From: Burkholderiaceae bacterium
GTDB lineage: Bacteria > Pseudomonadota > Gammaproteobacteria > Burkholderiales > Burkholderiaceae
NCBI GenBank assembly: GCA_021166835.1
Contig: JAJPEN010000064.1
Span: 79,129 to 143,128 of the forward strand
Length of the DNA stretch: 64,000 nucleotides
Reading direction: 5' to 3'
Below the pieces are notes generated by a model. It saw nothing but the letters and a program-made list of their open reading frames with translations, had not been told where the DNA came from and made no database searches. The position numbers were made by a program, and so were the translations under genes. Of the stretch, positions 11,057 to 46,588 are shown piece by piece; the stretch's first letter is position 1, and each line of letters starts with the position of its first letter.

Positions 11057-11185
11057 GTGTACGAGGTAGTCGTCACGAGGCGAGCGGCTGCCCAGATCGA
11101 ACGTGCCGCAGCCTGGTGGGCGAAGAACCGGGTAGGCAGGCGCTTTGACGCATCTCCCAAAACGGGAGATACTGTCCAGCGATGA
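11057..11185 (+). pseudogene. Truncated ParE/RelE-type toxin
   Basis: From a GTG at 11057 the frame reads VYEVVVTRRAAAQIERAAAW and then WAKNR, the typical start of a ParE toxin (about 95-100 residues when intact). After that the sequence is unlike ParE and stops at 11185 after 42 codons. The lost part is replaced by the higBA promoter and operator, and the stop overlaps the higB start. The toxin is almost certainly inactive. Confidence 0.7.
11145..11173 (+). promoter_or_regulatory. higBA promoter with palindromic operator
   Basis: TTGACG (11145-11150) and GATACT (11168-11173) are spaced 17 nt. Between them is a perfect inverted repeat, ATCTCCC (11152-11158), AAAAC, GGGAGAT (11164-11170), a likely HigA operator that overlaps the -10 box. 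The predicted transcription start is at about 11180, next to the higB ATG at 11182, so the leader would be absent or only 1-2 nt. Confidence 0.6.
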
Positions 11186-11490
11186 GGGTCATCGCAAAGA
11201 GCAGCCTGAAGAAGTTCTGGGAGCGCCCCGGTTGCTCCGATGCGCGAGGCCCGCTGCAAAGCTGGTACGAAGAGGCCCTCGAGGCGAAGTGGCGCCGGTC
11301 ACAGGACATCAAGGATCAGTACGCCAGCGCGAGCATCTGCGGCAACAACCGAGTGGTGTTCAACGTGGGCGGCAACAAATACCGACTCGTGGTCGAAGTG
11401 CAGTATCAGGCGGGGATCGTCTGGGTGAAGTTCGTCGGAACGCATGCGCAGTACGACCGCATCGACGTGGAGAGCGTGAATGACTATTAA
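11182..11490 (+). CDS. higB: HigB-type mRNA interferase toxin
   Basis: A 102-aa RelE-superfamily toxin that cleaves mRNA on the ribosome when free of its antitoxin. Family hallmarks are visible: SLKKFWERPGCSDARGPLQS, GNNRVVFNVGGNKYRLVV and VKFVGTHAQYDRIDVE. These match the HigB/YgjN type, including the basic and aromatic residues near the C-terminus. Length is normal. The toxin gene comes first and overlaps higA by 11 nt, the typical inverted order of this system. The gene sits inside a broken parE frame and has its own promoter. Confidence 0.93.
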   Translation: MRVIAKSSLKKFWERPGCSDARGPLQSWYEEALEAKWRRSQDIKDQYASASICGNNRVVFNVGGNKYRLVVEVQYQAGIVWVKFVGTHAQYDRIDVESVNDY

Positions 11491-11839
11491 GCCGATCCGA
11501 AACGACGACGACCTGAAGAAGGTGTTCCGTCGCCTGGAGAAGATTTTCCAGGCCGAAGAGGGGACGGCGCAGGCCGATGAGCGCGACGTTCTGGTGACGC
11601 TCGTCGAGGCCTACGAGAACAGGCACTACGACTTCGGACCCGCGGATCCGGTGGAGGCCATCAGGTTTCGCATGGAGCAGGAGGGACTGACGCCCCGCGA
11701 TCTGGAACCTTTCATCGGTCCGAGCGGGCGAGTGTCCGAGGTGCTGAACCGCAGGCGACCGCTCAGCCTGCGGATGGTCAAGCGACTGCACGACGGGCTG
11801 AAGATCCCGTACGAGAGCCTGCTGGCCGAGTTGCCCTGA
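11480..11839 (+). CDS. higA: HigA-type antitoxin
   Basis: A 119-aa antitoxin and repressor partner of HigB. It has the YgjM-like N-terminus (MTIKPIRNDDDLKKVFRRLE) and a C-terminal helix-turn-helix from about residue 60, EAIRFRMEQEGLTPRDLEPF with VSEVLNRRRPLSLRMVKRLH. Overlap with higB gives coupled translation. The perfect palindrome at 11152-11170 is the likely binding site for autoregulation. Confidence 0.93.
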   Translation: MTIKPIRNDDDLKKVFRRLEKIFQAEEGTAQADERDVLVTLVEAYENRHYDFGPADPVEAIRFRMEQEGLTPRDLEPFIGPSGRVSEVLNRRRPLSLRMVKRLHDGLKIPYESLLAELP

Positions 11840-13468: not shown

Positions 13469-13891
13469 TCACGCCTTCCGCCAAGGGTCGATCACGTCGA
13501 TGCCGCACTGCGCGAAGTCCTTGACGTTGCGCGTTGCCAAGCTGGCGCCCCTGGATCTGGCGATGGCGGCGATCACCGCATCGAACTGGCTGATCGGCTT
13601 GCCTGCGGTCTTGCGGGAGGCCGCGATCTCGGCGTAGGCATCAGCCGCGTCACTGTCGAAGCTCAACACCTGTCCGGCCAGGTCCTGATCGAAGATGGCC
13701 CGCACTGCGGCCAGCAGCGATGACTTGCGCTTGCTCTCCGCGAGCAGACGTACGCCGTACAGCAGCTCGCCCCGCGTGACGGTGGTCGTGAACAGCGCAG
13801 CTCGGGGCTGTGCGGCCAGCCATTTCAGGGCATGTGCGTCGGGTTCGGGCCGGAGCGTCTCGGACAGTACGTTCGTATCCAGGACGATCAT
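13469..13891 (-). CDS. VapC/FitB-type PIN-domain toxin
   Basis: A PIN-domain ribonuclease of about 140 aa. It starts MIVLDTNVLSETLRPEPD, with the first catalytic Asp in LDTN. The second acidic site is E in TRGELLYGVRLLAE and the third is D in ISQFDAVIAAIA, followed by SLATRNVKDF. The ATG at 13891 has GGAG 8 nt upstream and overlaps the antitoxin stop (ATGA); a TTG at 13897 is less likely. Such toxins cleave tRNA or other RNAs. The partner is the upstream FitA-like protein. Confidence 0.92.
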   Translation of the reverse strand: MIVLDTNVLSETLRPEPDAHALKWLAAQPRAALFTTTVTRGELLYGVRLLAESKRKSSLLAAVRAIFDQDLAGQVLSFDSDAADAYAEIAASRKTAGKPISQFDAVIAAIARSRGASLATRNVKDFAQCGIDVIDPWRKA

Positions 13892-14136
13892 TCCCAAGAC
13901 TCCAGCGGATCACGGATCGCTTCGCGCGCGGGCAACTCCAGTTCGACGCCGCCGAGTGGTTCCACGCGCGCGCGGATCGCTTCGATCAGAGAACTCGCAC
14001 GCATCGGTTCGGCGGAGAGCGCCGCCCGTAGGATGTCTCGCGCTTCGTCCTCCATCGACCGTCCGTGGACCGCTGCCTGAATACGCAGCCGGGCCTTCAG
14101 GTCATCGTCGATATTTCGGATAGTCATGGTCGCCAT
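13888..14136 (-). CDS. FitA-type ribbon-helix-helix antitoxin
   Basis: An 82-aa antitoxin and repressor. The N-terminus MATMTIRNIDDDLKARLRIQ, then AAVHGRSMEDEARDILRAAL, is the FitA/Arc-type ribbon-helix-helix. The C-terminal tail should mask the PIN toxin. AAGGAA lies 6 nt before the ATG at 14136. It is coupled to the toxin gene by an ATGA overlap. A perfect 9-bp inverted repeat and a promoter lie just upstream, consistent with autorepression by the complex. Confidence 0.9.
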   Translation of the reverse strand: MATMTIRNIDDDLKARLRIQAAVHGRSMEDEARDILRAALSAEPMRASSLIEAIRARVEPLGGVELELPAREAIRDPLESWE

Positions 14137-41444: not shown

Positions 41445-42593
41445 TCAGAGCTCGACGGTGATTCCATCGTCGTCCTCGGCGAACACTGCCTCGAAGCCGA
41501 GCTTGCGCTGCCGGCCGGCCTCGCCCCAGGCCTCGTTCGTCGCGCAGCGGTAGTTGAAGACGAGCACCGGCGGCTGCACGAGCGAGCGCGCGACGATGCG
41601 CTGCACGGCTTCGGCGTCGGGGTGGCCGAAGATGCCGCCGTTCGTGCTGACGAGGAACTTCGGCGATCGCACGAGCGACATCAGCTCGTCGGTGGTGTTC
41701 GCCTTGCTGCCGTGATGCGCGACCTTCACGGCATCGACGTGCAGCGTGTCCTGCCCGCGCTCCCCGAGCAGCCGGCGCAGCGACTCGCAGACGACGTCGG
41801 GATGTGCGTCGGCGAGGAACAGCACGCTCTTGCCGGCCGGGTCGCCGGACGCCGACGCGCTCCCCGGTGCTGCGAGCTCGGCGAGGAACGCGATGCTCGA
41901 GCCGTTGGCCGCCGCATTGTCGGGGCGCGACTGCTTCTCGAGCAGCTCGTCGAGCTCGGGCGTGCTGCCGAGCAGGCCGTCGGCGGGGAGGTATTTCTTC
42001 TGTCGGGCCAGCACCGCCCACGCTGCCTCCAGATCGCCCGGATCGAAGTCGCGCACGTCCTTGCGCCATGCGTCGCGCATCCGGTCGAGCTTCGCCGGCG
42101 TGGGCGAGAGCAGCGTCAACGCCAGGCCGCCGGCCAGCTCGATGCGCGGCAGCGGCGCATCGCCGCGAACGGCGACCGGGCCGCCGTCGAAGGCGCGATT
42201 CCACTGCCCGGCGTCGAACCGCTGCGCGAGCAGCGCGCTGAAGAATTCGCCCTGTCGTCCGCCGAGCAGTCCGTGCGCCTGCTCCATGTGCCGCCAGCCG
42301 TTGAACCAGACGTCGCGCACCGTGAAGGGCCAGGGCAGCGGTTCGGCGAACAGGCGCACGAGGCCGTCGACGTGATCGGTGTCGACGTGCGTGAGCACGA
42401 CGAGCTCGATGCGGCGGTCGCCCGCCGGCAGCGACTTCAGCTGCGATTCGAGCGCGCTCCAGGCGCCGATCGGACCGCCGTCGATCAGCACGCGGCGCGT
42501 GCGCTTGCCCGCCCCGTATTCGATCCACAGGCAGTCGCCGTGCAGCGCCGGCAGCATGCGGATGCGGAAGAAGGTCTTCGCGGTTGCGGACAT
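41445..42593 (-). CDS. MBL-fold metallo-hydrolase, ComEC/Rec2-like
   Basis: 382 residues. The start FRIRMLPALHGDCLWIEYGA resembles the MBL domain of ComEC-type proteins. The zinc-binding motif is THVDTDHVDG (H69, D71, D73, H74). Further metal residues lie in VLFLADAHPD and VKVAHHGSKANTTDELM. FGHPDAEAVQRI and VLVFNYRCATNE follow. Such enzymes cut nucleic acids or phosphoesters. It is the third gene of a leftward operon, 7 nt after the CHAT gene; the second, closer metal-binding layout is intact, so activity is expected. Target unknown. Confidence 0.9.
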   Translation of the reverse strand: MSATAKTFFRIRMLPALHGDCLWIEYGAGKRTRRVLIDGGPIGAWSALESQLKSLPAGDRRIELVVLTHVDTDHVDGLVRLFAEPLPWPFTVRDVWFNGWRHMEQAHGLLGGRQGEFFSALLAQRFDAGQWNRAFDGGPVAVRGDAPLPRIELAGGLALTLLSPTPAKLDRMRDAWRKDVRDFDPGDLEAAWAVLARQKKYLPADGLLGSTPELDELLEKQSRPDNAAANGSSIAFLAELAAPGSASASGDPAGKSVLFLADAHPDVVCESLRRLLGERGQDTLHVDAVKVAHHGSKANTTDELMSLVRSPKFLVSTNGGIFGHPDAEAVQRIVARSLVQPPVLVFNYRCATNEAWGEAGRQRKLGFEAVFAEDDDGITVEL

Positions 42594-42600
42594 GGCCGGA

Positions 42601-45462
42601 TCAGAGTCTCCAGTCGGCGTCGCCGAAGGCGACGATGCACAGCGCCATCGGCAGGCTGTCGAGCAGCGCTTCGCGCCGCGCATCGAGAACCAGCTCGCCG
42701 AGCTGGTCAGCCTCGGCGCCACCGGCGCGCAGCAGGCGCGCGAGGATCTTCGAGCCCACGGCGACCGCGTGCTCGCCGAACACCGTGGCCATCGTCGAGA
42801 TCACCACCGCCGCGCCCGCCTGGCGGAAATACCGGATGTGGTTCGAGAACGGCTCGGCGGTGCTCGCGACATCGCAGCCGAGCAGGAACACGATCGGCGG
42901 CGGGGCGCCTTCGGGACGGACGTAGTCGCGCGGCAGCCGCAGCGTCGGCAGGAAGTCGCCGCCGATCTCCAGCTTCATGTCCTGCCTGCGGCCCTCGTTG
43001 TGCGGGAACGCGACGAGCAGGGCGGGCTTGCGCTCGCCGACGGTGTCCTTCCACGCTGTCCACGTCGCCGCTTCGAGCGTCGCGTCGCCGAAGCGCGGCG
43101 AGAGCAGCTCGAGCAGCGGCGTGCGCGCTTCCTTCGGAACCTGCGCGCTGAAGCCGAGCACCGCGCAGCGGCCGAGGTCGAGGCGGTCGCGTCCCTCGGC
43201 CGGCTCGGCCTGGATCACGACCTCGGCGTCATCGGGCCTGCCGAGCGCGGGGCTGTAGACGTGCCGCTCGATGACCTTGCGCAGTCCCCAGAAGCCCATC
43301 GGGCAGATATGCGCGGCGGGGTCCGCGCGCCCGGCGCAGTCGGACGGGCAGCGGCCGGTCTTCAGCGCCTCGCGATGTCCGGGGCAGACCCGCTTCGCGT
43401 CGGACGCCGGCGGCGGGTAGTCGTAGAAGAACTCGATTGGAACGACCGCGTCGGCTCGCGCGCTGACGACCTGGATGTGCGTGAGCGAGTCGTCGCGCGG
43501 ATCGAAGCCGCCGTGCGCCAGCTCGACGAACTGGTCCAGGCACAGCGCCGAATAGAGATCGGCGCCGATGCGCGCGAGGCGCACGAGCAGCTGCGGGTTC
43601 TCGCCCTGGTCGAGCCCGTCGGCGTGGTCGGCGATGCTGTGCGCGGCGTCTGACAATGCGCCGTTCAGCTGCAGCAGCGGATCGGCGATGCCTTCGAGGC
43701 TCGTCGCCCAGGCGCGCCGCTCGGCCACCGCGGTGAGGCGCGGCGTGCCGTCGGCCTCGCCATGGTTGAGGACGAGCGCGAGATCGAAGCGGCGCCGTGC
43801 GCCGAGATCGCTCCAGTCCTCGCGCACTTGCGCTTCGTCGAGCAGGGCGATGCCGTCACCGCACTGGTCGCGATGCTCGCGCACGCGCGTGCGCAGGCGG
43901 GCGGTCTGCAGCACGCGGCCGCGGTGCAGTACGCTGATGCGCGCATCGAAGGCGCCGGTCCTGCGCGGCGTGAAGACGAACTGCGCTTCGCTGCTCGGGC
44001 CCACGCGCGGCAGCTCGATCTCGCGCAGCATCGGCTCGTCGAACTGATCGGGCTCGTGCACGACGACCTGCAGCGTGTGGACGTCGCGATCCTTCGGCAG
44101 TTCGTGCTCGGGGAAGGGGGTGGGCGCGCTGTCCCAGCCCGCATCTTCGCGCGCGCCGATGCGCACGCACAGCATCACCGGCTCGCCGCGTACGTAGCCG
44201 TCGCGAATCGCTTCGAGCGTGTCGCCTGCCTTGCGAAGGCTGCGCTGCTGCAGATGGCGCGCGGGACGGCGTTCGTCGTCGCGGGCGCCGCGCGGCGGGG
44301 GCGGCGGGGGCGGCGGCGCCGGAATCGGATGCGACGCACCGGACGGCGCTGCCGGTCGCAACCGGGGACGCCAGTCCGGGAAGTTCGAGTTTCGCCGCGC
44401 CGTCCGATCCGCCGCCGGAGCGCGCGGCGACGCGGAAGGCAGCGGGGAAGCACGGGCTGCCCTGGCTGCCTGTCGAGCCGGTGCGCGCTCGCTGCGCTCG
44501 ATCAGCGCCGCGCCGAGCCACGCGACGTGGCCTGGTCCCATCGATCGCATCAGCGCGATGTCGAGCGGGCATCCCGACGACATCTGGCCGGTGAATTGCC
44601 GCAGCGCGCCGATGAACCGGTCGCGCGGCATCCCCGGGGCGACGACGACGCCATCGGCCTGCAGGTGCGCAGCCAGCGCGCGCAGCAGCGGTGCCGAACG
44701 GGTTGGCGATTCGGGGCCCGGTGCGGCGACGATGGCGAGCGCACAGCGCGGCGGCGACGCGGCTTCGAGTGCACGCGCGAGGGCGCGCGGCAGCGGATGG
44801 CCGAGCGCGAGCACCTCGACGCGAGGTGTGCGGCGCGATGCGATGACGACGCGCGCATCCGGCGACGCCGCCGCATCTCCCGTCCACGCCGCGGCGAGAC
44901 CTTCGCCGAGCGAATCGTCGGGCAGCGTCGCGATCGTGAACGGCCAGCGCCACTCGGTCGGCCGCTGCGGCGTCCACGAAGCGACCGCGTGCACGCCGGT
45001 GAGCCGTGCCGCGTCGTGCGACAGCAGTTCGACGAAGTCGAGCATGCGCTCGTCGTGCTCGTCGTCGCCGCGCACCTCGAGGCGAAGCGATGATGCGTCC
45101 GCTGCGAAAGCGTTCCACGCATCGGCCAGATGCGCGGCCGAGGGCCACTTGCGCAGGCGCACGGGAGCATGCGCGCCTGCCTCGGGCATCGGCGGCACGC
45201 TCCATCCGAGCAGGCCCGCCGCCGCGCCTGCGCGCAGCCGCTGCCATGCCGAGATGGCGTGCAGCAGTTCCACGAAAGCAGGCACCGTCGGCGCGGGGTC
45301 GGCCGCGTCGATCGCGGCAATGCGCTGCGACAGTTCCGGCGGCAGGGCGTGGCCGGGAGCCTTGCGATCGAAGTCCTGCAGCACGCCGAGCGCTGCGAGC
45401 GCCGCGACGAAGCGTTCGTCGTCGATGCCGAGGCTCCACGCGCCCAGGTGCCGGCGATCCAT
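42601..45462 (-). CDS. CHAT-domain protease, large multidomain
   Basis: 953 residues. The C-terminal third (about 660-953) is a CHAT domain, a caspase-like cysteine protease. The catalytic His821 is in LLVAFPHNEGR and Cys863 is in PIVFLLGCDVAST. A Cys cluster just before (C693, C705, C709, C720) may bind zinc. The middle (about 425-530) looks like a beta-sandwich. A linker with eight prolines sits at 383-390. The first 330 residues are helical and unrecognised, a likely sensor or adaptor part. The start MDRRHLGAWSLGID lies 16 nt after the patatin stop. CHAT proteases act in cell-death and defence systems such as the CRISPR-linked Craspase; the trigger here is unknown. Confidence 0.9.
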   Translation of the reverse strand: MDRRHLGAWSLGIDDERFVAALAALGVLQDFDRKAPGHALPPELSQRIAAIDAADPAPTVPAFVELLHAISAWQRLRAGAAAGLLGWSVPPMPEAGAHAPVRLRKWPSAAHLADAWNAFAADASSLRLEVRGDDEHDERMLDFVELLSHDAARLTGVHAVASWTPQRPTEWRWPFTIATLPDDSLGEGLAAAWTGDAAASPDARVVIASRRTPRVEVLALGHPLPRALARALEAASPPRCALAIVAAPGPESPTRSAPLLRALAAHLQADGVVVAPGMPRDRFIGALRQFTGQMSSGCPLDIALMRSMGPGHVAWLGAALIERSERAPARQAARAARASPLPSASPRAPAADRTARRNSNFPDWRPRLRPAAPSGASHPIPAPPPPPPPPRGARDDERRPARHLQQRSLRKAGDTLEAIRDGYVRGEPVMLCVRIGAREDAGWDSAPTPFPEHELPKDRDVHTLQVVVHEPDQFDEPMLREIELPRVGPSSEAQFVFTPRRTGAFDARISVLHRGRVLQTARLRTRVREHRDQCGDGIALLDEAQVREDWSDLGARRRFDLALVLNHGEADGTPRLTAVAERRAWATSLEGIADPLLQLNGALSDAAHSIADHADGLDQGENPQLLVRLARIGADLYSALCLDQFVELAHGGFDPRDDSLTHIQVVSARADAVVPIEFFYDYPPPASDAKRVCPGHREALKTGRCPSDCAGRADPAAHICPMGFWGLRKVIERHVYSPALGRPDDAEVVIQAEPAEGRDRLDLGRCAVLGFSAQVPKEARTPLLELLSPRFGDATLEAATWTAWKDTVGERKPALLVAFPHNEGRRQDMKLEIGGDFLPTLRLPRDYVRPEGAPPPIVFLLGCDVASTAEPFSNHIRYFRQAGAAVVISTMATVFGEHAVAVGSKILARLLRAGGAEADQLGELVLDARREALLDSLPMALCIVAFGDADWRL

Positions 45463-45478
45463 TGCAGCTCGCGAGCGA

Positions 45479-46588
45479 TCAGGCCAGGCCGTACCCGGGT
45501 GCGGGAAGGCCCGGCGACGGCGATAGCGCGAGCTTCGCACGCGTGCGCAGCGCGGCGTCGCACAGCGCGTATCCCCAGTTCATCAGCCGGCCCTGCAATC
45601 GTTCGTCGAACGCGGCCAGCCGTGTCGGCACTTCGTCGAGCTCGCCCGTGATCGTGCTGTCGGCGGCCAGCGGATCGGCAGCCTTGTAGTCGCCGATGCG
45701 CGTGCCGATGCCCCAGTACGCGCCGCGCTTGCGGCCCGCCTCGAACTCCGAGACGAGCCAGCGCTTGCGCAGCGCGCGCGTCTGGTCGATCAGGATGTCG
45801 CGCACGCGGCCGAGCTGCAGCACGTTGTCTTCCCAGGGCTCCTCGTCGATGCCGAAGGGCGCGCCCGCATCGCTCACCAGCACGAGGTCGACGCGATCGA
45901 CGAGCGATTCGAGTCCCATGTTGTCGTAGACGCCGCCGTCGGTGAGCACGACGCGGCTGCGCAAGGACGCGAGTTCCGGCGCCTTGCTGCCTTCGCGCCA
46001 TGCATCGGGGTCGGTATCGAGGACGATCGGCGAGAACACCGGCGGGAACGCGCTCGACGCGGCCACGGCGACGGACAGCGGCACCTGCGCCGCAGGGTTG
46101 ATGCCGAGCAGGTAGTCGGCGACGAAGTCCTGCCGGAAGCGGAAGCTGCGCCCGGTCTGCAGGCTGGTCGCGTAGAAGACGAAGCGCGGGTTCCCGGGAA
46201 GCGACGCGTCGGGAATGTCCTTCAGCATCGCGCCGGCGAAGAGATCCTTGTCGTAGCGGGCGGCGAGGAAGTCGCCGGCCGTCCTGAACGGCGTCAGCAG
46301 GCCCTTCAGGCCCGCGCCGATGTCGATCGTTCGGCTGCAGAACCTGCGCACCGGTTCGGCCACCAGCGAATCGAAGTTCGCTGCCCGTCCGTCGACGAAG
46401 CGCAGCTCCTTCCAGCGATGCGCGAGCACGCCGGCGAGGATCGAGCCGCCCGAGACGCTGGTGATGCGGTCGAGCCTGCCGAGCAGCCCCGCGTCGTTCA
46501 GCCGCAGCAGCGAGCCGAGTCCGAACAGCGTTGCGCGAAATCCGCCGCCGGACAGCGCGATGCCGATGGTATTGCCGTCGATCGCCAT
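45479..46588 (-). CDS. Patatin-like phospholipase
   Basis: 369 residues. The oxyanion hole GIALSGGGFRATLFGLG lies at 9-25. The nucleophile elbow is SVSGGSILAG (probable Ser49) and the catalytic Asp is D217 in VVLTDGGVYDNMGLESL, so the Ser-Asp dyad is complete. No signal peptide is present, so the enzyme is cytoplasmic and would attack the inner membrane from inside. Such lipases are frequent killer effectors in anti-phage systems. It is the first gene of a three-gene operon with the CHAT protease and MBL hydrolase. The 129 nt upstream hold no clear promoter. Confidence 0.92.
   Translation of the reverse strand: MAIDGNTIGIALSGGGFRATLFGLGSLLRLNDAGLLGRLDRITSVSGGSILAGVLAHRWKELRFVDGRAANFDSLVAEPVRRFCSRTIDIGAGLKGLLTPFRTAGDFLAARYDKDLFAGAMLKDIPDASLPGNPRFVFYATSLQTGRSFRFRQDFVADYLLGINPAAQVPLSVAVAASSAFPPVFSPIVLDTDPDAWREGSKAPELASLRSRVVLTDGGVYDNMGLESLVDRVDLVLVSDAGAPFGIDEEPWEDNVLQLGRVRDILIDQTRALRKRWLVSEFEAGRKRGAYWGIGTRIGDYKAADPLAADSTITGELDEVPTRLAAFDERLQGRLMNWGYALCDAALRTRAKLALSPSPGLPAPGYGLA

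Follow-up and report, generated by a model that had tools for sequence, protein, structure and literature searches.

A patatin–CHAT protease–metallo-β-lactamase operon as a probable phage-defence suicide system related to canu

Introduction

What might a phospholipase, a protease and a nuclease-like hydrolase accomplish together in one tight bacterial operon? The question is raised by three minus-strand genes, encoding a patatin, a CHAT protease and a metallo-β-lactamase (MBL) fold protein in that order, which lie in the 64,000-nt stretch of Burkholderiaceae DNA analysed here (the window; contig JAJPEN010000064.1). We conclude that this operon probably brings about cell suicide in defence against phage and is related to canu, though built on a different protease. 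It is likely to work as a protease-switched programmed-death (abortive infection) system, with the CHAT protein cutting the MBL protein and the patatin acting as a second effector.

Results

The MBL gene (41445..42593) encodes a putative gated pro-nuclease of 382 residues with the motif HVDTDH at 69-74. Its best PADLOC models were LmuA, Avs1a and RTasMBL, which supports its place in a family used as defence nucleases, MBL-fold enzymes having been named in the initial annotation among the recurrent effectors or proteases of bacterial immune systems; the predicted fold was closest to the ComEC nuclease domain, and a profile search also found ComEC. The predicted local distance difference test (pLDDT) score of the model was 81 overall and fell below 50 only at residues 105-112, 205-211, 213-215 and 217-230. 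These runs coincide with two insertion sites of the family that bear a conserved motif, GLLG-G in loop 1 (residues 105-112; 42258..42281, minus strand; predicted cut after G111) and GLLG-S in loop 2 (residues 205-230; 41904..41981, minus strand; predicted cut after G209). Leu-Gly was present in both loops in all 37 sequences, and L110 and G111 of loop 1 were invariant in the alignment.

The two loop motifs resemble each other more within one MBL protein than across MBL proteins: both loops read GLLGA at locus L029, DELG at L035, DRLG at L039 and ESLGA at the canu-like L040. A shuffle test of the residues flanking Leu-Gly, which ignores the tree, gave p values of 5e-5 for 12 CHAT-linked rows below 62% identity and 0.0018 for 6 rows below 50% identity; among 300 control pairs of windows, 2 had p≤0.002, 3 had p≤0.01 and 13 had p≤0.05. 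Tuck et al. 2025 (PMC12799240) showed that gated MBL pro-nucleases are opened through cleavage by a partner protease, either a trypsin or a caspase. HamM has two such insertions, each cut by its partner protease after a single isoleucine, and each insertion of CanC holds a conserved glycine required for defence. By analogy, the MBL protein of the operon looks like a pro-nuclease of this kind. The ComEC-like fold, the two disordered Leu-Gly loops, the likeness of the motifs within a protein and the published relatives together suggest that the CHAT protein most likely cuts and activates the MBL nuclease. The initial annotation had allowed the protease to cut itself, the patatin or the MBL protein; only the last of these is retained as the best reading, and no patatin-specific cut motif was found in the patatin sequences.

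The CHAT-type protease gene (42601..45462, minus strand) encodes 953 residues that matched no Pfam family, PF12770 included, and a profile search of the PDB with the CHAT alignment detected no CHAT relative by sequence. When the predicted fold was compared with PDB structures, the best matches were separase and TPR-CHAT (Craspase), and H821 and C863 were invariant across 47 aligned rows. Going by its predicted fold, the protein is a CHAT peptidase (clan CD) with a His/Cys dyad. The model and the structure comparison place the CHAT domain at about residues 555-953 (42604..43800), preceded by an immunoglobulin (Ig)-like beta-sandwich at residues 402-550 (43813..44259) and, in the model, an N-terminal alpha/beta domain at residues 1-337 (44452..45462), all on the minus strand. 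The N-terminus had been proposed to sense the trigger; a Pfam search with 22 N-terminal pieces returned no recurrent family that would show this, and the domain is a possible sensor. From its sequence the same domain had been suspected to be a pseudo-CHAT, an idea dropped when none of the 22 pieces gave a CHAT match.

The first gene (45479..46588, minus strand) encodes 369 residues that match PF01734 (E 7.5e-16), and neither S46 nor D217 varies among 22 aligned patatins; by sequence, the product is a patatin-like phospholipase with a Ser/Asp dyad. Intact catalytic residues had been claimed for all three proteins, and this holds for H821/C863, the MBL motif and patatin D217, although the patatin serine is S46 and not S49. 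Whether CHAT might cut the patatin was also considered. The patatin beside the caspase of L040 has GLLS and DYVIG where that of the operon has GLLG and DYLLG, and these stretches are therefore not called cut sites. The leftward three-gene arrangement, with internal gaps of 16 nt and 7 nt and flanked by unrelated glutathione S-transferase (GST) and acyl-CoA thioesterase genes, was confirmed in the sequence.

Does the gene set recur? A protein search gave at least 26 CHAT relatives among the best 7,993 candidates scored, and a scan of genome contigs gave 37 CHAT loci from Pseudomonadota, Thermodesulfobacteriota, Myxococcota, Bacteroidota, Actinomycetota and one Methanoperedenaceae archaeon, many of them in Thauera and Accumulibacter genomes. 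CHAT is followed directly by an MBL gene at 36 of the 37, and the contig of the other (L008) ends there; the gap is -32 to 45 bp in 34 of these 36, the exceptions being L017 (103 bp) and L024 (426 bp, with a broken CHAT frame). A patatin gene precedes CHAT in 25 of the 32 loci whose upstream sequence extends to 900 bp or more, within 64 bp in all but L031 (528 bp) and L036 (two intervening genes). The co-occurrence that the initial annotation proposed as a check is thus conserved, with CHAT-MBL as the core and the patatin as a frequent addition. Some CHAT-family proteases cut other proteins (Craspase and Csx30), and the patatin adjoins CHAT in most loci, as would be expected if the patatin or cell proteins were the main targets of CHAT and the MBL protein were independent or restraining. 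However, the constant partner is the MBL protein, and it is there that the paired, conserved Leu-Gly loops sit; we regard a CHAT protease directed mainly at the patatin or at cell proteins as quite unlikely.

An unbiased sample of 369 genomes from the class of Thauera butanivorans (G001, included) held a CHAT relative in 2 genomes and a strong MBL match in 5. Patatin-CHAT-MBL was found in G001 and G089. G270 (L079:3704-8405) carries patatin, caspase, CanB-like and MBL genes in a single tight operon, canu-like with a patatin of its own, and G355 (L077:2291-6539) combines a Tle1-type phospholipase, a gated-type MBL and a CHAT protein with a TPR-S domain; neither protease nor lipase was among the genes scanned in G347. 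A nuclease, a clan-CD protease and a phospholipase therefore occur together in 4 of the 5 MBL-positive genomes, or 3 of 4 excluding the chosen centre, G001.

Relatives of the MBL protein were found in 54 plasmid records, 40 of them conjugative, and the surroundings of 20 records were inspected (17 via MBL matches, 3 via CHAT matches). Six showed the canu order of caspase, middle gene and MBL (L040-L044, L048); L045 has a caspase on both sides of the MBL gene, L061 a serine protease, and L056-L059 an annotated Avs1a adjoining a serine protease or Avs1b. ABC-3C loci were recognised by annotation (L046, L052) or Pfam (L053), a more distant CHAT-MBL pair was seen at L038, L039 and L060, and no clear protease adjoined the MBL gene at L047 and L049. 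Viral contigs held no CHAT relative, and phage records gave one weak MBL match.

In a 59-row tree, the CHAT-linked MBL proteins fell in a 42-row clade with support of 94/82, just short of the firm-branch mark of 95/80; the only row in it without a CHAT label, L054, turned out to adjoin a CHAT-AAA-subtilase protein. The caspase-linked rows formed the next group, weakly (82/61), and the Avs1 and ABC-3C rows branched apart (100/99). We conclude, with moderate support from the sequence tree, that the CHAT-linked nucleases form a clade beside canu. At L054 (4431-9741) the MBL gene is followed by the CHAT-AAA-subtilase fusion gene, in a Quisquiliibacterium genome that also carries the L021 system.

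Relatives of the patatin stand beside other proteases. A related patatin, a HETTH metalloprotease and an MBL gene make up L062:6577-10872 and L064:6084-10455; at L082:5462-10099 and L083:5462-10117 the same kind of cluster is followed by genes annotated as DUF1837 and DEAD/DEAH helicase, which we take to be HamA and HamB, making these loci Hachiman-like. The L082 cluster is also preceded by a CBASS cyclase. On plasmids (L080:5540-9807, L086:5438-11040) a related patatin accompanies an S8 peptidase and an MBL gene. Patatin matches on plasmids came from 49 records, and of the 7 inspected, 4 have a protease and an MBL gene and 3 (L081, L084, L085) do not. The metalloprotease-MBL pair of L074 gave no patatin match, and the weaker metalloprotease relatives of L075 and L076 had neither MBL nor patatin on the available stretch. 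In the patatin tree, whose root is arbitrary and in which L031 is an extreme long branch, the CHAT label requires at least three changes. The closest grouping of L026 is with a patatin linked to a subtilase (90/86), whereas L029, L030 and L055 join one linked to a metalloprotease (100/100, long branch). The MBL tree places L029 and L030 within the main CHAT clade, separate from L055, so patatins have probably been exchanged. The patatin is a mobile partner, with relatives beside caspase-, subtilase- and metalloprotease-MBL pairs, and L041 has a Tle1-type phospholipase ahead of its caspase.

More distant CHAT operons carry further partners: at L036 patatin and CHAT are separated by an AAA ATPase and a trypsin-STAND protein, and elsewhere there are a second CHAT with a STAND NTPase downstream (L037), a clostripain-family protein downstream (L034) and, in the archaeal L035 (4233-15206), a caspase domain fused to the CHAT protein and then a caspase-FGE protein. 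By eye, the genes upstream at L035 resemble parts of a phage tail or injection machine. Such swapping of partners would be usual in conflict systems.

Elsewhere in the window, small tandem ORFs (11182-11839) and, by eye, a PIN-like ORF (13469-13897) look toxin-antitoxin-like. The PADLOC models PD-Lambda-2_A and PD-Lambda-2_B each matched one window protein, probably the tandem ORFs.

Discussion

We propose that an infection cue, on reaching the N-terminal or Ig-like part of the CHAT protein, releases it from an inactive state. The active protease would then make cuts after Gly111 and Gly209 of the MBL protein, within the pair of loops covering its active site, a step suggested by the sequence, by loops that are both disordered and conserved, and by the mechanism published for related systems. 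Judging from its family, the MBL protein thus opened would degrade DNA, and the patatin, judging from its fold and recurrence, would attack membrane phospholipids as a second effector.

Several observations weigh against this proposal. The loop disorder comes from one model built from 37 sequences, the Leu-Gly cut sites are predictions from sequence, and the shuffle-test signal may partly reflect shared ancestry, so that it supports the proposal without proving it. The patatin is dispensable, since it is missing upstream at 7 of the 32 loci (L003, L021, L027, L033, L034, L035, L037) and a close patatin occurs elsewhere in only two of these genomes (L021, L037) and in none of the other five. 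Comparison by hhalign found no relation of the CHAT protein to six caspase proteins or six CanB-like proteins from loci classed as canu-like on their gene order, a set without KaeCanABC. Nearness to defence genes, also named as a check in the initial annotation, was examined by a control-free PADLOC scan of 115 of the 191 listed flanking proteins (27 loci, 10 near-duplicates skipped), which gave no clear island signal: 35 families were matched, and 25 were listed with one member each.

The hhalign result bears on whether the operon is simply a canu system with a diverged caspase, which would account for the sister position of the nucleases, the glycine loop sites, the Ig-like domain and the downstream nuclease gene. 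On that result the CHAT gene was rejected as a relative of CanA or CanB; there was also no Pfam caspase match, the best structural matches were separase and TPR-CHAT, and we hold a diverged canu to be very unlikely. The flank scan, like the housekeeping neighbours in the window and the many loci from Thauera and Accumulibacter, would suit an operon of activated-sludge and soil bacteria that is not antiviral and serves stress-triggered cell death or lipid and nucleic-acid turnover. The system is sparse (in 2 of the 369 genomes sampled from the class) yet spread across several phyla and an archaeon, related MBL proteins sit on plasmids (40 of 54 conjugative), and distant operons bear STAND, trypsin, caspase or clostripain partners; such a role is therefore unlikely, and we retain phage defence by programmed death as the preferred reading.

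If CHAT does open the MBL protein, CHAT proteases (relatives of separase and Craspase) would join trypsin-like proteases and caspases as unlockers of pro-nucleases, and the predicted cuts after G111 and G209 are open to a simple cleavage assay. The results also suggest that such systems recurrently have a membrane-lipid hydrolase as their second arm. More tentatively, phospholipase, protease and MBL nuclease could constitute a general bacterial death module of which the operon is the CHAT form, an interchangeable protease (CHAT, caspase, subtilase or thermolysin-like metalloprotease) perhaps licensing destruction of DNA and membrane together, and the phospholipase (patatin or Tle1-type) perhaps having been recruited several times independently. 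There is a loose analogy with eukaryotic cell death, in which a single protease class triggers damage to both DNA and membrane.

Comparison with known systems

The initial annotation knew of no named system with exactly these three parts, and none was found in the open-licence PubMed Central (PMC) literature, which gave no description of a patatin-CHAT-MBL gene set. The main text of PMC12799240 mentions neither CHAT nor patatin, and its Fig. 4A cites further protease families that may include CHAT; the available parts of PMC8195603, PMC12419801 and PMC11090510 hold nothing on the gene set. As for Lamassu, the MBL protein matches the LmuA model, and no LmuB was among the PADLOC families of the 38 other window proteins. 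For AVAST type 1, it scored 203.6 bits against the NCBIfam Avs1a model, below the cut-off of 420, and no trypsin, STAND, Avs1b or Avs1c match occurred among the three operon proteins.

Avs1 and the nuclease-protease Hachiman (HamMAB) share with the operon an MBL pro-nuclease paired with a protease. In these systems, according to PMC12799240, the protease is trypsin-like and forms a fusion with a STAND or HamA protein, and the MBL gene lies upstream of it; in our tree, the Avs1 and ABC-3C nucleases branch apart from the MBL protein of the operon (100/99). Type III-E Craspase (TPR-CHAT, Csx29) has the CHAT protease fold that is predicted here, but the operon has no gRAMP or CRISPR genes, another N-terminal domain and another predicted substrate. 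The clusters L062, L064, L079, L080, L082, L083 and L086 likewise combine a related patatin, a protease and an MBL gene; they differ in having a caspase, S8 subtilase or HETTH metalloprotease, and several of their MBL proteins are distant from that of the operon.

The operon also resembles canu (CanABC), in which, according to PMC12799240, a protease gene lies upstream of a gated MBL nuclease with two loop insertions that hold conserved glycines, and the protease protein has an Ig-like fold. The operon, too, has its MBL gene downstream and, by predicted gating, two disordered loops with a conserved glycine. It has a CHAT protease where canu has a caspase, an extra patatin and no CanB relative, no further gene lying between CHAT and MBL, and its family carries Leu-Gly where the loops of canu-like loci mostly read Glu-x-(Phe/Tyr/Leu)-Gly. 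The activation mechanism of a protease-nuclease pair is already known, having been published in 2025 (PMC12799240), and the operon would extend it to a CHAT protease.
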